This document shows positions 4,266 through 34,839 of a stretch of 34,839 nucleotides of DNA, piece after piece. Both the position numbers and the translations under genes were made by a program. The stretch's first letter is position 1. Each line of letters starts with the position of its first letter. Location of the stretch: the NCBI GenBank assembly GCA_947574255.1, contig CANPJT010000008.1:1-34839 (forward strand), read 5' to 3'. This stretch comes from an uncultured Mycoplasmatota bacterium (GTDB lineage Bacteria > Bacillota_I > Bacilli_A > RF39 > UBA660). Under the pieces are notes generated by a model, which saw nothing but the letters and a program-made list of their open reading frames with translations, did no database searches and was not told where the DNA came from.

Positions 4266-5093
4266 TTATCTTTTTAATCCATTAGTTTCATCTTCTTCAT
4301 AATTGAAATCTAAATCAGAATAAAAATCATAATTATATAAATATTGATTATCTATATCTATAACTGTCTCTTCTAGTTTAAAATCATTAGCTTTTATAAT
4401 TTTGCTAATATGATGATTTTCTTCAACGGGAACAAATCCAATAATATATTTAGGATTTAATCGTTTAAATCCATTTTCATCCTCAAAACAAATTTCTTTT
4501 TCTAAATCCTCATCAGGTATCTCAATTAAAATAGAGCCCTCAGACCCTTTATATAAGTCTGCATACATTAATTCCTTTATAATTGTTTTATTATCAGGAT
4601 AATATGATACATTATCACTTAATGAAACAGAAGATACTACGCCTGAACCTAAATGCCCTGAAATTATTAAACCATTTATTAATATGTCTTTAATACCATC
4701 AAACGTACATCCGCCTACTCGATGAATACCTATTAAAACTTTTTCTTTGGTAGTTAAATTTGTTAAAAATGATTCCATTTCTTTAGACATTGTCCCTGTT
4801 CCATCCCCTGAATACTCAAAAGACTCACAACTATATCCCTTAGCTTCTAAATAATCAGATCTTTCTCGAATTTTTTTTGCTTGAATACTTTCTTTAATCT
4901 TTTCTTCCATTAAAATTGGATTATCTTTCAATTTTTTATTTTCGTCATCTAGATTTTTTTTAGTTCTTCTATTTAAATATTTATATGAAATTTCTTTACC
5001 ACTATAATAATAAGAATATTGTTTTTTTTCTAAAATAAAACCCATCCAAATAGAATCTTTTTTATAATCCCATTTTTTCTTAAATAAATACAT
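4266..5093 (-). CDS. Hypothetical protein, possible ADP-ribosyltransferase-like fold
   Basis: 275-aa protein with no signal peptide or membrane span. Residues 1-95 are charged and helical. The C-terminal half carries a distinctive block, IHRVGG, then INGLIISGH, VSLSDNVSYYPDN, EGSILIEIPDEDL and LNPKYIIGFVPV. The layout (a His/Arg start, 'GL', a Ser-rich strand and a repeating beta pattern ending in a possible catalytic region) recalls ADP-ribosyltransferase or RNA 2'-phosphotransferase folds, but no catalytic triad can be assigned by eye. The start ATG follows GGTG with 6-nt spacing, and a TATAAT hexamer lies just upstream. It is better treated as unknown until a profile search is done. Confidence 0.6.
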   Translation of the reverse strand: MYLFKKKWDYKKDSIWMGFILEKKQYSYYYSGKEISYKYLNRRTKKNLDDENKKLKDNPILMEEKIKESIQAKKIRERSDYLEAKGYSCESFEYSGDGTGTMSKEMESFLTNLTTKEKVLIGIHRVGGCTFDGIKDILINGLIISGHLGSGVVSSVSLSDNVSYYPDNKTIIKELMYADLYKGSEGSILIEIPDEDLEKEICFEDENGFKRLNPKYIIGFVPVEENHHISKIIKANDFKLEETVIDIDNQYLYNYDFYSDLDFNYEEDETNGLKR

Positions 5094-5124
5094 TTTATCA
5101 CCATATTAATTATAACATATAATA

Positions 5125-5937
5125 CTATTTTTTCATTGCTTTACAAATATATCTGTGAATGTTAGCTATTTTTCGAGCAACACAATTTACATATTTTTTC
5201 TTAACATATTCTTTTAATTTATCTTTTTGTGTTAAAACAATTAAAATATATGGAATATCATCATACACAATCCTTACCTCATGATAAGCTATTCCAAAAC
5301 TTCCATATTTTTTGACAAACTCTTTATTATTCAAATTCTTTGGAGTAATAATTTCATAACCTGGATTTATCATATATTCTTTTAATTCTTTACTAAGAAT
5401 TGTATTCAAATTAAAATACTTATATAAAGCTTCTAAATATATCATCATATCAAACGAATTAACAATTCCAAATAAATCTACACCTTCTAAAGTATGCAAA
5501 GCACCTAAAGATTTACCAAATTCAATTAATTTTTCTTTTGTAATATACAAAACCAACTTTATATAGGCAGTATTATCACTTTCTTTTAAACAAAAATAAA
5601 TTAATTCACGAATTGTATATTCCAATTTTTCTTTATTATTTTTAAGAACTCCACTACCTAATTTAAAATCTTCTTCTTTTAAAATTATTTTTTCATCTAA
5701 TATTTTATCATCTTTTTCTGCTTTTTGGTAAATATATAAGGCCACTAAAAACTTAATAGAACTAGCAGCATAAAAACAAATATCATAATTAAATGTAAAA
5801 AAATCTCCTGTTACCAAATTTTTATAAGCATAAGAAACTTTCTCATTTTGTTTTAATAAATACTTATTTAAATTATACAATTTTTTTCTTATTTTTCTAT
5901 TTTGAATTTTAGTGTAACAAGAAACTTTTTCATTCAT
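5125..5937 (-). CDS. Class A beta-lactamase-like serine hydrolase
   Basis: 270-aa protein of the penicillin-recognising serine hydrolase fold. The three active-site boxes are visible: S59-x-x-K62 in AASSIKFLVALYIYQ, S120-D121-N122 in ESDNTAY, and K210-Y-G212 in VKKYGSFG, which replaces the usual KTG. Enzymes of this fold are beta-lactamases, DD-peptidases or esterases. The length fits class A beta-lactamases. Unlike secreted members, the N-terminus (MNEKVSCYTKIQNRKIRKK) is polar and lacks a signal peptide, so it may act in the cytoplasm or leave by another route. The 3rd box and the lack of a clear Omega-loop ExxLN make a true beta-lactamase doubtful. Confidence 0.8.
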   Translation of the reverse strand: MNEKVSCYTKIQNRKIRKKLYNLNKYLLKQNEKVSYAYKNLVTGDFFTFNYDICFYAASSIKFLVALYIYQKAEKDDKILDEKIILKEEDFKLGSGVLKNNKEKLEYTIRELIYFCLKESDNTAYIKLVLYITKEKLIEFGKSLGALHTLEGVDLFGIVNSFDMMIYLEALYKYFNLNTILSKELKEYMINPGYEIITPKNLNNKEFVKKYGSFGIAYHEVRIVYDDIPYILIVLTQKDKLKEYVKKKYVNCVARKIANIHRYICKAMKK

Positions 5938-10077: not shown

Positions 10078-10617
10078 ATGAAGTCACAAAAAACAACGTT
10101 AATTAAACCCCAAAAAAGAAAAGAAAAAGAAAAAATAAATTATGAATTAATTAGTGCTATAATTTTGCTAGTTACTGGCATTATTCTTGTAACAAATTCA
10201 AGTAAAGCTGTCATTATAATTTGTTATTGCCTTGGTATCATAATAGCTTTATTTGGTGGCTTTAATTTATTAAATTATTATCGCTTAAAAAACGAATTAA
10301 AAATTGAGAGCAATACTCACTTAATATTAGGAGTGACAACTGTCTTTATTGGAATAATAATTATTCTACTGGCTAGTGCTATAGAAGCTTTTTTAAGATT
10401 TATAATTGGTTTAATCTTAATTATTAATGGTCTTAATAAAATAAAAACATCTATTGATAATCGTACATTTATCACATTAACTATTGGTATCATCCTTGTG
10501 GGAATAGGACTTTATACTATTTTAGCTGAAAATATTATCTTTATTATAGTTGGATCATTATTAATTTTATCTAGCACTATAGATCTAATTAAATACTTTA
10601 ATAATCAAAAAAAATAA
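10078..10617 (+). CDS. DUF308/HdeD-like six-span membrane protein
   Basis: 179-aa membrane protein with a basic N-terminal tail (QKRKEKEKIN) and about six short hydrophobic spans arranged in repeated pairs, each pair carrying a 'G(I)I(L)...NG/GG' turn (SAIILLVTGIILV, GIIIALFGGFNLL, GLILIINGLNKI, GSLLILSSTIDLI). This pattern is typical of the HdeD/DUF308 family, whose E. coli member is linked to acid resistance and whose biochemical role is unclear. The ATG has AAAGGAAG 5-6 nt upstream. It is the only plus-strand gene in the first 13 kb and has its own promoter and a shared terminator. Confidence 0.8.
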   Translation: MKSQKTTLIKPQKRKEKEKINYELISAIILLVTGIILVTNSSKAVIIICYCLGIIIALFGGFNLLNYYRLKNELKIESNTHLILGVTTVFIGIIIILLASAIEAFLRFIIGLILIINGLNKIKTSIDNRTFITLTIGIILVGIGLYTILAENIIFIIVGSLLILSSTIDLIKYFNNQKK

Positions 10618-22554: not shown

Positions 22555-24723
22555 TCATATCACATTTTTTAAGAGTATTTCAATATCTAATTCACTATTG
22601 TATTTATTAATTAAATTCTTTAAATTACGTAAGCCATACTTATCACATTCTGCTTCTTCTAAAACGCTTTCAACAGATATCTTTTTATTTTTTAAATTAT
22701 TTGATACATAATTTTTTAATAAATCACTATCTAAACTTTTATAAAAAATTATATCATTAAAACGCCCCAAAAATTCTTTACTAAATACTTCAGTTAAATT
22801 ATCACAATCATGACTAATAAATCCAACATTTTTCTTATTTATTACATTACTAGTCATAAAAATCATTGTATTGGTAAAATCAATTTTTTCTCCCATAGCA
22901 TTAGTTACAAATCCCTCATCTAAAATTTGTAAAAATAAATTAAGAACACGCGGATGAGCTTTTTCTAATTCATCTACTAGAATAATAGAATAAGGATTAT
23001 CAATAATCTTTCTAAAAATATAAGCATCATTATATCCAATATATCCAGCACTTACTCCTATCAGCTTATTTACTGACGTATCTAAATTAAATTCACTCAT
23101 ATCAAGACGAATTAAATTTCCATTAAAAATACTATCTGCAATAACTTTAACACTTTCTGTTTTACCAACTCCGCTAGGACCAAGCAATAACAATGATAAA
23201 GGTTTTCCATCTTTATTCAATTTAATCCATACATTTTTCAAAATTAAATCAATCGCTTTATCTTGTCCAAAAATTTTTGTCTTCAAATTATTTTTTAACG
23301 TAGTAAACATTTTTTCTTTATTCTTTAATAGTGGAATTTTAGTCTTTTTTTCAACTATTGTCAAAATATCTTCATATGAAATTGTACTTTGATTCTTATT
23401 TTTCAAACCTTTAAGTTTCTTCAATAACCTATTTTCTTCCTTTTTACACAAAGAAGCATTCTCATAATCATCATTATAAATATAATTATCTTTCTTATGT
23501 TTTATTTCTTTGATCTTGTTATTCAAATCATATATATTTTGCAAAGATACACCATTAATCTTTTTACTAGCACATACCATATCTAACAATTCAATTGATT
23601 TATCAGGATTACTTTTTTGTTTAATATATTGATTTGTTAATCTTACTATATCGGTAATATTTTGTTCACTAATTTGTATATCATGATGCGTTTCATAATC
23701 TTTCTTTATTCCTAACAAAATATCTTTAGTTTTATTTAAATCTGGTTCTTCAATTTGAATAGTAAAAAATCTTCTTTCTAAAGCTTTATCTTTAAAGATC
23801 GATTGATAATATTCATCAACAGTTGTTGCACCAATGCATTTAATATCTCCACGAGCCAAATATGGTTTTAAAATATCACTAGCATTTATAGCCCCCTCTG
23901 CTCCGCCAGCATTAATCATTGTATGTATTTCATCAATAAATAAAATGATATTTTTATTTTCTATAACTTCTTTAATTATTTTAGTTAATCGTTCTTCAAA
24001 TTCTCCTCGGTATTTAGTTCCAGAAATTAAAGATCCCATTTCTAACATTACAATTGTTTTATCTAAAAGTTCACTAGGAACTATTCCTTTATTAATTCTT
24101 CTTGCTAATTCTTCAACTATTGAAGTTTTTCCAACACCAGCTTTTCCAATCAACAAAGGATTACTTTTCTTCTTTCTTAATAACGTTTCTATTAACAAAT
24201 CAAGTTCTTCTTCTCTTCCTATTACCCTTTCTTCATTATTAACCGCTTTATTAAGATTATTCCCTATTTCATATATTTCTAACTTTTGATCGCGATTACG
24301 AACTAAGCTTGTTTTAAATTCATCATATAAATTATCTAAATCTACTCCCATTCCTAACATGATTCGAATAGCTATTCCTTCTCCCTCTTCAAGCAAAGCT
24401 AAAAATAAATGATTTACTGTAACCTGACCAGAATTATTATCCATCGCATCATTTGTCGCATTTTCAATAATTCTTTTTAAAAGTGGTGTATATAAAATAA
24501 AATTATTATCTTTTTTTGACATACCAACCACTTTTATCAACTCATCTTTAAATTTTTGAAATGTTAAATTATATGTCCTCAAAATATCACTAACTTTATT
24601 ATCTTCATCCAATATTGCTAGTAATAAATGTTCACTCCCAACATAAGGATGTTTCAAATTTTCTTTAAACACCTCTGCTTTTCTAAATAACGCTGCTATC
24701 TCTATTCCATAATTTTCAAACAT
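22555..24723 (-). CDS. ClpC-like AAA+ unfoldase in the type VII locus
   Basis: 722-aa hexameric unfoldase. It has a double Clp_N repeat (1-145), AAA1 with Walker A GKAGVGKT (193-200) and Walker B LFIDEIH (261-267), a UVR-like middle helix (about 405-440, as in ClpC), and AAA2 with GPSGVGKT (515-522) and ILVDELEKAH (581-590). A VGF tripeptide at 633-635 falls where ClpC docks on ClpP. It would unfold proteins and feed ClpP. It is shorter than the usual ~810-aa ClpC. It may be the cell's general ClpC or a paralogue serving the secretion system. AGGAGG precedes the ATG, and terminators on both sides make it a single-gene unit. Confidence 0.88.
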   Translation of the reverse strand: MFENYGIEIAALFRKAEVFKENLKHPYVGSEHLLLAILDEDNKVSDILRTYNLTFQKFKDELIKVVGMSKKDNNFILYTPLLKRIIENATNDAMDNNSGQVTVNHLFLALLEEGEGIAIRIMLGMGVDLDNLYDEFKTSLVRNRDQKLEIYEIGNNLNKAVNNEERVIGREEELDLLIETLLRKKKSNPLLIGKAGVGKTSIVEELARRINKGIVPSELLDKTIVMLEMGSLISGTKYRGEFEERLTKIIKEVIENKNIILFIDEIHTMINAGGAEGAINASDILKPYLARGDIKCIGATTVDEYYQSIFKDKALERRFFTIQIEEPDLNKTKDILLGIKKDYETHHDIQISEQNITDIVRLTNQYIKQKSNPDKSIELLDMVCASKKINGVSLQNIYDLNNKIKEIKHKKDNYIYNDDYENASLCKKEENRLLKKLKGLKNKNQSTISYEDILTIVEKKTKIPLLKNKEKMFTTLKNNLKTKIFGQDKAIDLILKNVWIKLNKDGKPLSLLLLGPSGVGKTESVKVIADSIFNGNLIRLDMSEFNLDTSVNKLIGVSAGYIGYNDAYIFRKIIDNPYSIILVDELEKAHPRVLNLFLQILDEGFVTNAMGEKIDFTNTMIFMTSNVINKKNVGFISHDCDNLTEVFSKEFLGRFNDIIFYKSLDSDLLKNYVSNNLKNKKISVESVLEEAECDKYGLRNLKNLINKYNSELDIEILLKNVI

Positions 24724-25091: not shown

Positions 25092-28000
25092 CTACATATA
25101 TTTAACATATTCTAGTTTGCCATTTTTTACAAGCGTTACATTACTATTTCCTAAAGAAATATTACTATAACGATTGATTATTTCAAACAAATCTTGAGAA
25201 TCAAAATTTTTGCCTAACCAAATACCATTATTTCTTTTAAATAATGTATCAAGGCTTCCATCCACTATTGAACTAATCTCACTCTCTTTATCATATAAAA
25301 TATAACGAAAATTATTAATTGGCTTAGAATTAGAGATTAAATCATCAATAGTCACAACATCTGAATTTTCTTCTTTTCGAGACATCAAATGTTCTTGCAA
25401 TTTTTTATATCCAATAAATATAATAACAAAATTATTATTTGATCCTTCACTAATATATTTATTAACATTAGTATTAATTATATTTAATACTGATTGAAAA
25501 TTAGAATCATAATATTTAGCATCTCCAAAGCCATCATATTTAAGATTTTTAAACGCATTTATTACAATAACCTTAGTATTTGCTACACTTGTAAATATTT
25601 TAACTAATTTTGGAAAGAAATACTTTGCTGATATATTATTCTCCCCTGTAATAACATTTAATAAATTATTAAAATTAAATGTATTAATTTGAGCTGTTTG
25701 TATATTAATACCTATCGGAATATTTTCTAAATCAGTTATGTAAGGCTGTAATAACTTATAAGTAACCTCATTAGGTACTACTGGAACTCTTTTAGCTTTT
25801 TTCTTTAAATACAAACATAATTGTTCTATAGTATAACTTAAATTTTGCTCATAAACTTCGTCATCAAAAATAAGTGGTACTTGAAATTCTAATTCATCAA
25901 ATAACTCAATTAAACCACGTCCAGAATTTTTTTTAGGCATTGGAGGATTATCAAAAAATATTCTATAATCACTTGTATCTACCATATTAAGCATAATTTT
26001 TTTTGGAAAATTATTTTCAACATTATACCCCAAAGCATTAGTCAATGTTGATGTAACAATCAAATAAATACCAACTTTCGAACAATTTCTTGTGAATGGT
26101 CCAAAATCCTCATCTACAAGATCTTCAAAATTTTCTTTAAATATTTCAAATTGATTAATAATTAATACAATATTGGGAAAAATTGAATATCCCTTTTCAA
26201 CATCTTTAGCAAAATCTCCCCCATATTCACTATAATACTTAAATCTTTTATCTCTTTCATTCTGTAACATATAAAATAAAAATTTAATTTTTTCAGTATC
26301 CCCCGAAGTCAAAACCTCTCCAACTTGAGGAGCTTTCTTAAATATTTTTAATTTTTCAGAACCCATATCAATAATATAAATATTAACTTCATCAACACTA
26401 TGATTAATAATTATTGAATAAATAATTGTTGATAACAAAGTATTTTTTCCACTTCCATTAGCTCCCACAACAAAAGCATTTCCACAACTTACAAAAGGTA
26501 AATCAACATATCCTTGATGTTGATTAGAAGGATCATCATATTCTCCAATAATTGGATTAATATAAAATGGTTTAGATTTTAACTGATATTTTTTTATTAT
26601 ATCATTGTAAAAAATAGTTTCTGGAATATTTTCCAACCATAATGAAGAAAAATTAATATTTTCATTTTTGGCAACATCATAAAGACGTTTAACAACATTA
26701 GTTAATTGATCTCCTCTATCATCATTTTTCTCTTCTTTTTTAATTTCTTCATTTACAACCTTTAAAATTTCACCACTATTAGTTAAAAATAAAATACTAT
26801 CATCTAATTTTATCTGTATATTATCAGAAGGTATATATTTCGCACCAGCCCAACCAGACTGCCCAAGTTCAAACATTTCATCATTACCAACTTGTAAATA
26901 AAACCTACCAGCCTCTTTAATAAAAGCGGCATCATTACGTTTTAATAACTCGTTGCTATCTTCTGGAGATTGAACTTTTAAACAAACTCTAAAACGAGTA
27001 TTGCTCCATATTTGATCATCAACAACACCACTTGGTTTTTGAGTAGCTAAAATTAAATGCACTCCTAAACCACGTCCGATTCTAGCCGCTGAAACTAACT
27101 CATCCATAAAATCTGGCTGCTGCATTTTCAACTCAGCAAACTCATCACATATAATAAATAAATGTGACATTGATTCACTAACTTTACCTTCCCGATACAA
27201 TCTTTGATACTTATAAATATCAATAGTACTTTCATTATTTTGTTCACGAGCTTTATTAAAAACTCTCTGTCTTCTTTGTAATTCACTTTTTATAGAAACT
27301 AAAGTTCTATTCATTTCACTAAAATCTAAATTAGTAATTGTTCCAACTAAATGCGGAATTTTAATACCAGTCTCTCTATTTTCAAAAGCCCCTGCAAGTC
27401 CCCCACCTTTATAATCAATTAAAACAAATTGCACTTCATATGGATGATAATTAATAGCCATTGATAAAATAAAAGTAATTATAAACTCTGATTTACCACT
27501 ACCAGTCATACCTGCAATTAATCCATGAGGTCCATGATACTTTTCATGCAAATCTAATTCTATTAATTTATTATTTTCTTTCATTCCAATGGGAGCTTTT
27601 AAACTAATCGTCGGATTATTAGAAGCCCATCTGGACAAAATATTTAATTGATCCACTCTTCCTGCATAAAACATATCTAAAAAATTTAAACTACTTGGAA
27701 TATCATTGTTAGCATTTTTAATATTAACAGGAATATTAGAAATAATCTTAGCATATTTTTCAATATCCAAATTAGGAAGATAACTCATATTAAAAGATAC
27801 CTGTGCATTATTAGAAATATTTCTTTCAATAATTACTCCATTAGTATCAACAATTTGTACCAAAGTATTAAATTTACTAGGTAAATTTTTTATCGAACTT
27901 TCAAATATTAAAATAGAAAAACCTATATTTTCATTACTATCTAAAATCTTCTCAATTACCGATAATTCTCTAGCTAATTTAAAATCATCTGTTACAATAA

Positions 28001-29657
28001 GATAATACTCTGAAAAATTCATATACTTTTTTTGTTTTGAATTATTTGTTGTAAAATTTATTCTATTTTCATACTCTCGTTCTAAATACAATGACAATTG
28101 CATAATTTCATCTTCATTAGTTGCAAAAAATCTTCTTTCATAATCTCTATCCCAGCTATGTGAAGTATATTTCATAAAATCCCATTTTTTTTCATTATAG
28201 TCATTTGTAATCGTCACAATTTTCAAATCGTTTCCACTATAAAAATAAAGTAATTGAAGCATTATTGACTTAATATAGTCATCTGCATAATCAGAATCTA
28301 TTACAATAGGCGCAATAATATTATCAGCTATTGAAAATGTAATAGGTACATCTTTAAGTTTATTATTTCGATTAGCTATTTCTAACACTAATTCTTTTAA
28401 ATTATCATCTTCAAGAGCAAAGCGTTTCTGAGAAGCAACAATATTTAGCTTGGCTGGTAAATTCCCAACCCCAAAAGTAATAGATAAAAAATCATTATCA
28501 AAAATCTCTCTATTCCATATATCTTTGCAATTATTATTTATATTTTCAATAATCTTATCTAGAGATAAATTATTTACTTTTAAAACATTTTCTTGCTTTA
28601 ATATACATTGTTCTATCAATTCTTGACGTTGATTAAGATACTCTTTATATTTTGTTTGTCTCAATTTTTCCTTCTTTTTCAAATTCCCTTTTTCCCATTT
28701 ATCCATTAACATCGGTATAAATAAACTTACGACAAGCATAAGACCAAATACTATTATTTCTATTATTAAGGTAAATAAATCTCCTTGCCCTTTTGAATAA
28801 GAACGCAAACTATTTATCAAAGAAACTGAAGATGTTAAAGACATTATAGCAGAAGTACCAAAAGTAAAAATTACTGGGGTTTTTTGAATACTTTCTTTAG
28901 ATGGAGGTTCATCAAAAACTATTTCTTCTTCCTCTAATTCACTTTTTAATCTAGGCGTATGAACAAATAATTGATTTTCATTAAATAGCTTAACATTTTT
29001 TTCTACATCACTCACTGGTAAAATCTTAGTTGATATCATATTATTAGACATATTAATTTTTGTTAAACCAGAAATTTGAATAGAATTAGCAAAATCATTA
29101 ACTAAAATAAAATTTTTCATATATACAATTTGTATACCACTTACAAATACAATATCTCCAACACTTAATTTATCATTTTTATAAACCTGCGAATTCAAAT
29201 ATGAAGAATTCTTCTTCATATTCACTTTCTCTACAAAAAAATCATACCCATCTCTTTTTAAAGATACTGCTAAATTAATTAAATTTGGACTATAAATTTG
29301 ACATTCTCTCGAACTACCAATATCGATTTTATCAATTCCTTGAATAGAATAAGAAATATAATCAATAAAATTTGGAATTACATAAATACTTAAATATGTT
29401 GACATATCAGCAAATTTTAACTCTAAAAATAAATTTTCCTTTAAAGAAACAATATTACATCCAATTCCATTTTGTTTTATATTTAATTTATCATCAGATA
29501 TAATGTTCCAATAATTATCATTAGATTTCAAAGTTAAAACTTCATTATACTCAATACCATCAATAACGAACTGTAAATTTATCATATAAAAATTTTCTAT
29601 TTTTTGTGGTAAATGATAATATTTTATCTTTCTATCATCACAAACTAGCAATCTCAT
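25092..29657 (-). CDS. essC: Type VII secretion ATPase EssC
   Basis: 1521-aa membrane motor of type VIIb secretion. It starts with the typical MRLLVC, two FHA-like beta domains (1-235), and two membrane spans (about 261-283 and 294-317). A long cytoplasmic linker leads to three FtsK/SpoIIIE ATPase modules. D1 is intact: Walker A GMTGSGKS (716-723), Walker B LFIICDEFAE with D838-E839, and the ATQKP sensor. D2 has GANGSGKN (1065-1072) and a Walker B changed to IINQFE (Asn in place of Asp). D3 has lost its Walker A (ITGENNISAK, 1336-1345). AAAGGG lies 8 nt before the ATG. It is the energising core of the locus and probably recognises the WXG-like substrate encoded upstream. Confidence 0.95.
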   Translation of the reverse strand: MRLLVCDDRKIKYYHLPQKIENFYMINLQFVIDGIEYNEVLTLKSNDNYWNIISDDKLNIKQNGIGCNIVSLKENLFLELKFADMSTYLSIYVIPNFIDYISYSIQGIDKIDIGSSRECQIYSPNLINLAVSLKRDGYDFFVEKVNMKKNSSYLNSQVYKNDKLSVGDIVFVSGIQIVYMKNFILVNDFANSIQISGLTKINMSNNMISTKILPVSDVEKNVKLFNENQLFVHTPRLKSELEEEEIVFDEPPSKESIQKTPVIFTFGTSAIMSLTSSVSLINSLRSYSKGQGDLFTLIIEIIVFGLMLVVSLFIPMLMDKWEKGNLKKKEKLRQTKYKEYLNQRQELIEQCILKQENVLKVNNLSLDKIIENINNNCKDIWNREIFDNDFLSITFGVGNLPAKLNIVASQKRFALEDDNLKELVLEIANRNNKLKDVPITFSIADNIIAPIVIDSDYADDYIKSIMLQLLYFYSGNDLKIVTITNDYNEKKWDFMKYTSHSWDRDYERRFFATNEDEIMQLSLYLEREYENRINFTTNNSKQKKYMNFSEYYLIVTDDFKLARELSVIEKILDSNENIGFSILIFESSIKNLPSKFNTLVQIVDTNGVIIERNISNNAQVSFNMSYLPNLDIEKYAKIISNIPVNIKNANNDIPSSLNFLDMFYAGRVDQLNILSRWASNNPTISLKAPIGMKENNKLIELDLHEKYHGPHGLIAGMTGSGKSEFIITFILSMAINYHPYEVQFVLIDYKGGGLAGAFENRETGIKIPHLVGTITNLDFSEMNRTLVSIKSELQRRQRVFNKAREQNNESTIDIYKYQRLYREGKVSESMSHLFIICDEFAELKMQQPDFMDELVSAARIGRGLGVHLILATQKPSGVVDDQIWSNTRFRVCLKVQSPEDSNELLKRNDAAFIKEAGRFYLQVGNDEMFELGQSGWAGAKYIPSDNIQIKLDDSILFLTNSGEILKVVNEEIKKEEKNDDRGDQLTNVVKRLYDVAKNENINFSSLWLENIPETIFYNDIIKKYQLKSKPFYINPIIGEYDDPSNQHQGYVDLPFVSCGNAFVVGANGSGKNTLLSTIIYSIIINHSVDEVNIYIIDMGSEKLKIFKKAPQVGEVLTSGDTEKIKFLFYMLQNERDKRFKYYSEYGGDFAKDVEKGYSIFPNIVLIINQFEIFKENFEDLVDEDFGPFTRNCSKVGIYLIVTSTLTNALGYNVENNFPKKIMLNMVDTSDYRIFFDNPPMPKKNSGRGLIELFDELEFQVPLIFDDEVYEQNLSYTIEQLCLYLKKKAKRVPVVPNEVTYKLLQPYITDLENIPIGINIQTAQINTFNFNNLLNVITGENNISAKYFFPKLVKIFTSVANTKVIVINAFKNLKYDGFGDAKYYDSNFQSVLNIINTNVNKYISEGSNNNFVIIFIGYKKLQEHLMSRKEENSDVVTIDDLISNSKPINNFRYILYDKESEISSIVDGSLDTLFKRNNGIWLGKNFDSQDLFEIINRYSNISLGNSNVTLVKNGKLEYVKYM

Positions 29658-29740
29658 CCTATTAACCCTTTCTTATTCTGTACAATATTACATTATAAAA
29701 ACATTATACATTCTTTATAAAAAAATAACAACAGAAATAG
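29658..29740 (-). promoter_or_regulatory. Upstream region of essC
   Basis: This 83-bp AT-rich stretch separates the essC start from the divergent plus-strand promoter at 29741-29769. It must contain the essC promoter, since no co-directional gene is close upstream, but no single hexamer pair stands out. Confidence 0.35.
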
Positions 29741-29769
29741 TTGACAGTTTATTCTTTATATGTTAGCAT
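29741..29769 (+). promoter_or_regulatory. Strong plus-strand promoter with no ORF downstream
   Basis: A consensus TTGACA (29741-29746), exactly 17 nt, then TAGCAT (29764-29769) preceded by TG in extended -10 position. Transcription would begin near 29776. It points away from essC into 400 bp of non-coding DNA, against all genes of the locus. Confidence 0.65.
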
Positions 29770-29775
29770 AAAATT

Positions 29776-30189
29776 GTACTAGAGAATAATAAATGAATTA
29801 TGTTAATTACTTTTAACGATTTGCTTCATTTGATTTATTCCTAGACAATTCCAATAAACTTAAAAGTTTATTGGAAAATCCAGTAAAATGCTTTTATTAA
29901 GGCAATATTAAATAAAATATAAAAAAGATTGCGAATCGGCTTAATTAATCATAGCCATGTGTACACAATTTAGAGAAAAAGAATAAAAGCATTGAATGTG
30001 AGAGATGGACTCATATAACATTTAGAAAATCAATTATAAATGTTTATTGAAAAAAACTCGTAGTATAATGAATTATAGCTAAATTCACTATGCTTTAGAA
30101 AAAACAGTTATACCTTTTAATATGATTCACAAAGTTATATAAAAGTATATATTTTTTAGTAGAGACTTGATTATATCTCTGCTTTTTTT
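29776..30189 (+). ncRNA. Candidate structured non-coding RNA, about 414 nt
   Basis: Plus-strand segment between a strong promoter and a plus-directed terminator, with no usable ORF. Predicted helices in order: a broken long hairpin closed by CTAG/CTAG (29779-29844) enclosing GTTAA/TTAAC; a perfect 13-bp hairpin TTCCAATAAACTT/AAGTTTATTGGAA (about 29850-29877); a 12-bp long-range helix AATGCTTTTATT (29887-29898) with AATAAAAGCATT (29982-29993) enclosing GATT-GCG-AATC and GGCT...AGCC; ACATTTA/TAAATGT (about 30019-30044); a GAATT/AATTC hairpin near 30070-30094; and the terminator. It matches no RNA I know: it lacks the RNase P and tmRNA signatures. It converges on the acidic-protein gene and lies divergent to essC. 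Confidence 0.5.
30159..30189 (+). terminator. Plus-strand intrinsic terminator with no gene upstream
   Basis: GTAGAGA and TCTCTGC form a 7-bp stem with one G-T pair and a 10-nt loop, followed by seven Ts on the plus strand. The other side has no T-run in the minus direction, so it works only for plus-strand transcription. Confidence 0.7.
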
Positions 30190-30210
30190 ATTTAACAACA
30201 TAAATATATT

Positions 30211-30480
30211 TTAAAAAAAATCATTCAAATCTGATGATATTTTTTCAATATCATCATTATTTTCAACATCTAAAATATCTTCATCTATAAAACTATCATC
30301 GATTTCTTCTTCTCTTTCTATATCCTGTAATTTAAAATCTAATACACTAATATTATTATCATTAAAAAATTTAAATGTTTCAATAAGTTCTACAGGTACT
30401 TTATCATTAATTATAAATTTACCATCAGATCCAATATATTTTAAATATTCTTTCTTAGCATTTTCACTTAACTCTCTCAT
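30211..30480 (-). CDS. Small acidic protein of the type VII locus
   Basis: 89-aa protein whose last 40 residues are very acidic (EREEEIDDSFIDEDILDVENNDDIEK), with a helical N-terminus (MRELSENAKKEYLKYIG). Its size, charge and place between the WXG-like substrate and essC would fit a secretion chaperone or accessory factor, but no family is recognised. The frame is open to 30519, but that start would lie inside the terminator hairpin at 30514-30527; the ATG at 30480 follows AAGGAAGG. It is convergent with the candidate RNA. Confidence 0.7.
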   Translation of the reverse strand: MRELSENAKKEYLKYIGSDGKFIINDKVPVELIETFKFFNDNNISVLDFKLQDIEREEEIDDSFIDEDILDVENNDDIEKISSDLNDFF

Positions 30481-30504
30481 ATATTTTCCTTCCTTATTTC
30501 CTAA

Positions 30505-30527
30505 AATTAAAAAAGCCAAAAATGGCT
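30505..30527 (-). terminator. Intrinsic terminator of the WXG-like gene
   Basis: AGCCA-AAAA-TGGCT (30514-30527), followed on the minus strand by six Ts, 12 nt after the stop at 30539. A short stem, so some read-through into the acidic-protein gene is likely. Confidence 0.7.
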
Positions 30528-31384: not shown

Positions 31385-33142
31385 TCAATTTTCATACCAT
31401 TTATTTACTATATCTACATTTGTACTCTTAGGCATTGGATTAGGTATTTCAAATTCTGTAATCAAAGGCACCTTAAAAGCATTCCCAAACAATAATGCAG
31501 AACCAGGTCTTAAAGATTTAACTTTTTCAACATCATGCAAAGAAATATTTGAAGATATCGATGTTACCATTTTAATATCTTCAGGATAAAACATTCTAAA
31601 AACTATAAAATTAGAACATTGGCTTAAAGCATTAGATGAAAGTTCACTTATTCTTTGAGTAATAAGCCCTAAAAGTAATCCATATTTACGACCTTCCTTA
31701 GATATTCTATCAAATATATTATATCCAATTATATTTATATCATTATCATTTTGTACATATCTATGGGCTTCTTCTATAATTATATTAATTGGAAAACTGC
31801 CTCTATCTGGATTAGATGTGGAAAATTTATACAAAATCTTTGACATTATCTTAATTATAATTTTAGCAAAACGATCATCAATTCCATTAAAATCAACATC
31901 AACAAATTGAACATTATCATTAACAGGAGTTAAGAATAAACTTTTTACATAAGTATTTCTATCAACATTTCCATCGTATTCAAAAAACTTTCTCAAATCA
32001 CTATTAATAATACTGTGTAAACTTGTTTTTAATTTGTTCATTTTTTCGAAAATATTTTCATTAATCATTGCCCCTTCACTAACAATAGCAAACTCTAAGG
32101 CATAATATAAATCATTTAAATCATAAACAGTTGGCGTAATCTCAATTTGTTCAATACTAACTTCTGAATACTGTTTTAAATAATCAGATAAAAGTTCCAC
32201 AGCTGCTAGTTTTCCTTGTGAATCAACATTCAAACATTGTCTAATAGTTCTATTATATCCTGGTTGACTAATAATTGTTTCAGCATTTAAATCTTTAGTA
32301 TAAAATTTTGATAAAAAAGCTAAAGCTTGATCTCTAATCTGTTGAGCAGGTTTACCACTAGACAGCATATCTAATAATCCTTTAGCTACTATATCATTTT
32401 TATACTCATCACAAATTTTATCATCGCTTTTAAAAATATAAACATATGTTAAAGTTTTTTCTAACGTTGGAATAAGAGTAGGATCATCTGCATTTAATAA
32501 AACAGCCAAATCATCCGCATCCAATAAATATGGGGGAATTCTAATTTCTTCTACATTCTCTCCTTCATTATAAATTGAAGACAATATTTTAACATTTATA
32601 TCAGGATGAGTGTTAATATTAGTTAATGCTGAAATATATTCACCATAAGCATCAAACATAATCATGTGACAATTAATTGGGTTCTTCTTATTATCTGCAA
32701 ATACATTTTGAATAACCCTTGCTACTCCACATGATTTACCACCTCCAGTATTTCCTACTACTGCAAAATGATTAGAAAAAAAGTTATTTAAATTTGTCGT
32801 AATACTAAATCCATCATAAATAGTAGATTTACCAAATAGTAAATTTTCAGGCGATACAACATTTTGACTTCCAATTATATATTCCAATTCTTCTTTATAA
32901 ATAACTCTACATTTTGAATCAATCGCTGGATAACTATCAGCTCCAGCAATAAAACTATTTCCTTTAATCTCTCCAAGAAGAGCAATATGAAACTCTACTT
33001 CATTTACAAAAATAATCTCTCCAACTAGCTTTTTCTTATTTTCAAATACAACATAATACCCAATAATATCAATTAAAGAAACTTTCTTTAAATTTTCAAC
33101 TTTTATAATATTATCATCAATTTTTAATATTTTACCTAACAT
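31385..33142 (-). CDS. HerA/DUF87-like hexameric ATPase
   Basis: 585-aa ATPase of the HerA-FtsK superfamily. Residues 1-90 form a HAS-barrel-like beta domain. Walker A is GNTGGGKS (130-137), followed by MIMFDAYGEY, and a Walker B with paired glutamates sits in INIIIEEAHRYV with ITQRISELS after it. HerA proteins usually work with the nuclease NurA in DNA end processing or with effector nucleases in defence. No nuclease gene is adjacent here; the neighbours are type VII genes. No Shine-Dalgarno lies close to the ATG at 33142; a GAGGTG site is 30 nt upstream across a small hairpin. It may be a second motor for the locus or an unrelated defence or maintenance ATPase. Confidence 0.82.
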   Translation of the reverse strand: MLGKILKIDDNIIKVENLKKVSLIDIIGYYVVFENKKKLVGEIIFVNEVEFHIALLGEIKGNSFIAGADSYPAIDSKCRVIYKEELEYIIGSQNVVSPENLLFGKSTIYDGFSITTNLNNFFSNHFAVVGNTGGGKSCGVARVIQNVFADNKKNPINCHMIMFDAYGEYISALTNINTHPDINVKILSSIYNEGENVEEIRIPPYLLDADDLAVLLNADDPTLIPTLEKTLTYVYIFKSDDKICDEYKNDIVAKGLLDMLSSGKPAQQIRDQALAFLSKFYTKDLNAETIISQPGYNRTIRQCLNVDSQGKLAAVELLSDYLKQYSEVSIEQIEITPTVYDLNDLYYALEFAIVSEGAMINENIFEKMNKLKTSLHSIINSDLRKFFEYDGNVDRNTYVKSLFLTPVNDNVQFVDVDFNGIDDRFAKIIIKIMSKILYKFSTSNPDRGSFPINIIIEEAHRYVQNDNDINIIGYNIFDRISKEGRKYGLLLGLITQRISELSSNALSQCSNFIVFRMFYPEDIKMVTSISSNISLHDVEKVKSLRPGSALLFGNAFKVPLITEFEIPNPMPKSTNVDIVNKWYEN

Positions 33143-34766: not shown

Positions 34767-34839
34767 TGGTGGAGCAGAGGGGACTCGAACCCCTGTCCAA
34801 AATATCCTATCATACAATTTCTACAAGTTTAGCTAGATT
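34767..34839 (-). ncRNA. ssrA: tmRNA, 3' end (partial)
   Basis: Read on the minus strand, the RNA ends in GCTCCACCA, preceded by a T-arm of GGGG-TTCGAGT-CCCC and the tmRNA-type TTTGGACAGGGGTTCGAGTC. Further upstream lies TAGCTAAACTTGTAG, typical of the 3' pseudoknot region. It lacks an anticodon arm at the proper distance, so it is tmRNA and not tRNA. It rescues stalled ribosomes with SmpB. The 5' part, including the tag reading frame, lies beyond the window. Confidence 0.9.

Follow-up and report, generated by a model that had tools for sequence, protein, structure and literature searches.

To our knowledge, large structured RNAs are few in bacteria and the majority of them have no assigned function. 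OLE, ROOL, and GOLLD are RNA-only homo-oligomers by cryo-EM (PMC12286853). The RNA gene described here was predicted in a DNA stretch of 34,839 nt from an uncultured bacterial lineage, referred to as the window throughout. It resembles these three in being large and stand-alone, with an elaborate fold, long-range helices, and predicted loop-loop contacts. Its self-complementary elements would fit oligomers of the OLE/ROOL/GOLLD kind. However, it is shorter, at ~410 nt compared to 577 nt for OLE and 659 nt for ROOL (PMC12286853), and it lies in a T7SS locus, whereas RNAs of that kind have a prophage or tRNA-island setting. It also has no Rfam match to OLE, ROOL, or GOLLD.

Regulatory sRNAs of the Firmicutes are likewise intergenic genes with a promoter and an intrinsic terminator, but the present RNA has a much larger conserved architecture and a conserved target site was not found. 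The HMP-PP (thiS) riboswitch has a terminator-embedded aptamer (PMC6478431), and in the present RNA the terminator hairpin likewise belongs to the conserved fold. In contrast, most members of the present family have no sense gene downstream and thus no expression platform. A structured ncRNA tied to the T7SS did not turn up in searches of the openly accessible literature.

A predicted RNA gene with its own promoter and terminator

The predicted ncRNA gene occupies 29776-30190 on the plus strand, its 5′ end being set from the promoter. The original prediction of a TTGACA-17-TAGCAT promoter with an extended -10 was confirmed as a sigma-A-type consensus match at 29741-29769 on the plus strand, with TTGACA at 29741, a spacer of 17, TAGCAT ending at 29769, and TG ahead of the second hexamer. 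By itself, such a match is weak evidence, with 36 sites in the region compared to 25.9 expected. TTGACA is found at the equivalent place in four homologs (G015, L032, G415, and G346) and TTGACT in G155; in L033, this position is lost to the contig end. The terminator was also found as predicted, at 30158-30190 on the plus strand. It consists of AGUAGAGA...UCUCUGCU and a U-tract, forms hairpin P10 with the loop UGAUUA (30168-30173), and is kept in all seven members of the family. A simple terminator scanner had no entry for it.

Between these signals the unit is free of ORFs, as had been claimed: the plus strand has none of at least 20 aa within 29690-30200, and there is none of at least 70 aa within 29658-30210. 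As a control, 20 stretches of the same genome (439 kb) were searched for ORF-free promoter-to-terminator units. Four were found, namely a tRNA-Asn unit, two short units, and the RNA gene, which was the only one longer than 200 nt. The source genome is 838 kb and 74% complete, the window being its contig C8, and the 388 kb scanned held no further copies of the RNA.

The proposed shuffle check was run on the plus strand, which has a folding energy of -83.6. Shuffles of equal dinucleotide content reach -62.1 +/- 4.7 (z -4.56), and none of the 100 made was as good. The minus strand of the region folds well too (z -3.83). This and the AT-rich DNA would fit a spacer that folds by chance or a cis-regulatory leader, to which we give next to no credence. 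Across the seven members, the wobble-type cells are 31 G-U and 0 A-C, which identifies the plus strand as the RNA and, with the compensatory changes described below, argues against both.

Homologs in one family of uncultured Bacilli

Seven members of the family were found: the window, G015, L032, L033, G415, G155, and G346. The G015 copy is collinear and was found by BLAST in relatives. When 84,980 species genomes were scanned with a two-block pattern, the loci recovered were L031 (the G015 copy), L032, and L033. Those homologs that have named records come from ‘uncultured Bacilli’ MAGs with ‘Lapin’ in their isolate names, presumably from rabbit gut. A covariance model of the core was built from the window, G015, L032, and L033 and applied to 386 genomes of the host group, one uncultured Bacilli family. 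This covariance search reached three distant homologs: G415 (E 7.5e-6), G155 (9.2e-6), and G346 (7.5e-4). Despite the divergence, GAGA..ACUC, a block similar to CUCG, the loop UAGCUA, and AGAAAA are retained in their alignments.

The distribution is patchy, with the RNA in 4 of the 386 family genomes sampled and, by DNA search, in 2 of 22 in the genus. A class-wide search of 395 genomes recovered only the window; this absence is soft because the first pass scores only seven candidates per genome. The window region has no match in Rfam 15 at the gathering score, and a relaxed E gave only chance-level matches for the window, L032, L033, G415, G155, and G346. Phages, plasmids, and viral contigs were searched by BLAST and with patterns, likewise with chance matches only, and R2 had no match on 40 viral contigs. 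Two candidates were rejected as homologs: L034, which is a Thr-rich ORF, and a stretch of Staphylococcus phage SEP1 (E 0.2), in which the motifs are missing and the region reaches at most 5.1 bits with R1.

A fold conserved in diverged sequences

The fold comprises P1, then P3 enclosing P4-P5 and a palindrome, then P6-P8, P9, and the terminator P10, all on the plus strand. P1 (29779-29844) is a predicted 5′ hairpin domain with an inner GUUAAU..UUAACGAU hairpin, and its equivalents in homologs were judged by eye. The perfect 13-bp hairpin of the original prediction is P2 (29849-29876). It is lineage-specific, the site having a longer hairpin in G015 and none in G415. The perfect 12-bp helix spanning 107 nt was also found, and this one, P3, is conserved and covarying; its arms are 29887-29898 and 29982-29993. 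P5 (29938-29956) is a GGCU/AGCC hairpin with the loop UAAUCA (29946-29951), whose AAUC core is invariant, and it is followed by the palindrome GUGUACAC (29959-29966). P6 (30000-30012), GAG-AGAUGGA-CUC, is invariant in the four close members and G346, and its loop varies in G415 and G155. The conserved AAACUCGUAG (30054-30063) is AAAUUCGGG or AAACGCGGAG in distant members. P8 (30062-30094) has a covarying stem and the palindromic loop UAGCUA (30076-30081). The closing stem of P9 (30098-30157), GAAAA(A)/(U)UUUUU, which is AAAAG/CUUUU in G155, surrounds a variable hairpin.

P3, P5, P8, P9, and P10 are formed in all seven members, each read separately, with 287 of 287 cells paired. P3 has 82/82 cells paired and at least two Watson-Crick types at 11 of its 12 pairs, P5 has 30/30 with at least two types at all 5 pairs, and P8 has 78/78 with at least two types at 11 of 12; P10 has 56/56. 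When partner strands were swapped between members, pairing was 70% for P3, 46% for P5, 54% for P8, 93% for P9, and 78% for P10. By the pairing left after the swaps, P9 is little informative and P5 and P8 are the most informative.

The helix strands in this count were hand-chosen, and therefore P3 was given an unbiased test, in which the longest gap-free complement to the 14 nt before P6 was compared to 2000 dinucleotide shuffles per member. The 12-bp run was matched by 3 shuffles for the window, 10 for G015, and 20 for G155. The test was weak for L032 (125 of 2000) and L033 (104 of 2000), and G415 and G346 fail it, P3 requiring a one-base bulge there. In the four close members, P6 and P8 together were above all slid controls in cells paired and covariation score; within these four alone, further pair types were no more than in shuffles. 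The L032 and L033 folds, each alone, were weakly better than shuffles (z -1.7 and -1.9).

Homologs at 67% identity or below still hold the fold. Since seven diverged copies retain it while the letters change, the shape is under selection, and to the extent that sequence can decide, the covariation refutes a chance-folding spacer. The homologs, the covariation in P3, P5, and P8, the strand-specific G-U pairs, the conserved promoter and terminator, and the empty Rfam result bear out the prediction of an undescribed structured RNA. From these comparisons, we are almost certain that it represents a real conserved structured RNA family.

Loop complementarity and palindromes

The P5 loop, UUAAUC(A), is complementary to the terminator loop, (U)GAUUA(A), over 5-7 nt in all seven members, with a pairing energy of -1.9 to -4.6 kcal/mol. 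The letters of these kissing loops are almost invariant, and thus they offer complementarity but little covariation. Contact between the two loops would anchor the 3′ terminator hairpin to the core, and a terminator anchored in this way may leave the RNA compact and resistant to exonucleases.

The palindrome GUGUACAC is present in five members and is replaced by CAAUGUACAUUG in G155 and GGUGCACG in G346, so that self-complementarity is kept in every member. Its self-duplexes have energies of -12.6 to -22.6 kcal/mol, and it forms no stable hairpin in 4 of 7 members. The P8 loop is UAGCUA except in G015, where it is UAGCUG. Both palindromic elements are compatible with dimerization, and two copies of the RNA could pair through GUGUACAC and the UAGCUA loop to form a dimer.

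Neighboring genes and modes of action

In the window, the RNA is divergent from essC, the gene of the T7SS motor ATPase (25092-29657, minus strand; TIGR03928, 918.8 bits with a cut-off of 778.4). It is convergent with the gene of a 102-aa acidic protein (30211-30519, minus strand), which has no Pfam family and matches proteins of G415 (E 8e-12) and L033 (3e-8). The locus also encodes a ClpC-like ATPase (22555-24723) and a HerA/DUF87 ATPase (31385-33142), both on the minus strand. A candidate essC promoter, TTGTTA-17-TATAAT (29703-29731, minus strand; consensus match only), lies next to the RNA promoter and faces the opposite way.

Acidic proteins of ~100 aa were observed adjoining EssC or the RNA in the window (30211-30519), L032 (2545-2856), L033 (666-980 and 1915-2229), and L040 (6553-6846). 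They have a conserved N-terminal part and a C-terminal DLNDFF, DLNDLF, NDLNDMF, or DNLNSLF. In L033, the acidic protein is within a duplicated three-gene cassette.

The RNA had been called antisense to the secretion locus, and this did not hold. It overlaps no gene, essC starting at 29657 and the 102-aa gene ending at 30211, and cis-antisense RNA was rejected on these ORFs, UTRs apart. Moreover, a separate candidate promoter serves essC, the G155 copy runs in the same direction as its EssC genes, and the G346 copy is away from any T7SS gene in the 13 kb covered. The related statement that all neighboring genes run the opposite way is true of the window and not of every homolog, as the G155 arrangement illustrates. 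A riboswitch or leader was rejected as well: it would need a codirectional gene behind the terminator, but a convergent gene is located there in the window, G015, L032, L033, and G415, a contig end in G155, and a codirectional gene only in G346.

A base-pairing regulatory sRNA, acting on mRNAs from the secretion locus or from other loci, would suit a gene that has its own promoter and terminator and adjoins essC, and the unpaired conserved AAACUCGUAG and the P6 loop could serve as seed regions. We consider it improbable, because AAACUCGUAG is altered in distant members and the size and fold are unlike those of the usual short-seed sRNAs. In addition, the conserved unpaired stretches, ACUCGUAG included, have no shared complementary site in the contigs that carry the RNA. 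Even less probable, and very much so, is a dual-function RNA with a small peptide from an AUG in the P6 loop (window 30000-30030). The AUG is at the equivalent place in all seven members (GUG in G415), and 6 of 7 start with MDS or MNS (VTQ is also among the starts). However, the frames are 6 to 21 codons long, their stop positions differ, conservation ends at the third codon, a spaced Shine-Dalgarno is absent, and the letters are accounted for by the P6 hairpin.

Probable association with one EssC subtype

Six of the seven copies are in T7SS loci. The RNA is between EssC and the small acidic protein in the window, L032, and G415, and in L033 it adjoins the acidic protein at the contig end. The G015 copy is flanked by the ClpC-like gene and the HerA gene of a T7SS locus, and in G155, the RNA comes after an 83-aa gene that follows EssC. 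The G346 copy, near rpoB, has a UPF0236-family gene on one side and a methyltransferase gene on the other, and the 13 kb covered there contain no T7SS gene.

Among 60 relatives, EssC was detected in 17. It is in the RNA locus of the window, G015, L032, G415, and G155. In the EssC tree, all five of these testable RNA-bearing EssCs are in one seven-row clade (support 100/100), a result that is descriptive because they were ascertained through the RNA. The clade's other two rows are G010:C2, in which the RNA was not found, and G025:C2, which has a second RNA family. R1 and R2 gave no match in EssC loci outside this clade, and most T7SS loci, G010:C2 included, are without the RNA. The RNA is likely linked to one T7SS EssC subtype, judging from these sequence comparisons.

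The reading that we favor, and hold to be reasonably probable, is a stand-alone, trans-acting structured ncRNA of a new family that is encoded among the T7SS genes of a single EssC subtype and has a role in the T7SS. The folded RNA would serve the secretion system in trans, which is the weakest step of the proposed mechanism. Its partner would most likely be a protein encoded at the locus, with EssC and the 102-aa acidic protein as first candidates, rather than an mRNA reached by base pairing. Because the setting is a single T7SS EssC clade, the role of the RNA is testable.

A different reading, possible but somewhat unlikely, is that the RNA is a passenger with its own function, selfish or other, in T7SS loci that act as variable islands gathering accessory genes. 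The G346 copy outside the T7SS, adjoining a UPF0236-family gene, would fit this, as would the patchy presence in the family and genus, the varying position and orientation within the locus, and the tmRNA beside the window T7SS locus. Against it stand the six copies in T7SS loci, the single clade of the five testable EssCs, the phages, plasmids, and viral contigs without a match, and the second family, which occupies a like place at two further EssC loci. The tmRNA gene is represented by its 3′ end (34767-34839, minus strand) at the contig edge and is a possible integration site.

A second RNA family at EssC loci

The second family, family B, has one copy in the T7SS locus L065 (G025:C2) at 5210-5626 on the minus strand (417 nt, z -5.75). 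Its other copy is in L147 (G210:C43) at ~1395-1785 on the plus strand, adjoins the EssC C terminus, and has 74% identity over the core. The G210 copy has no match in Rfam, and R2 without filters found nothing convincing on L065 and L066. Family B contains several UAGCUA elements, and one of its hairpin loops is complementary to the loop of its terminator (-11.6 kcal/mol in G025 and -5.0 kcal/mol in G210). The loop pairs are AAUGACC/GGUCAUU in one copy and AAUGAUU/AAUCAUU in the other, and these two compensatory changes provide independent support for a loop-terminator contact.

Family B may be a distant relative of the first family or a convergent design. Both families occur at EssC loci and have the loop-terminator kissing architecture, which suggests a common design principle. 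A more detailed version of the favored reading, in which a kissing-closed RNA from at least two families would be a homodimeric or larger component of the secretion system with one EssC subtype, is speculative, and we regard it as unlikely.

Other candidate RNAs were observed at T7SS loci. L065, the locus of the G025 copy of family B, also has two paralogous RNAs of ~165-220 nt at 10412-10574 and 4906-5130, both on the plus strand (z -6.25 and -3.3). They have in common a AAUUAGUAGGAGAG..CUCC hairpin, a TTGACA promoter, and a terminator; the first of the two, at 10412-10574, has no Rfam match. On another T7SS contig (L073, from G003), a promoter-terminator unit of 106 nt is present at 5794-5899 on the minus strand (z -4.9).
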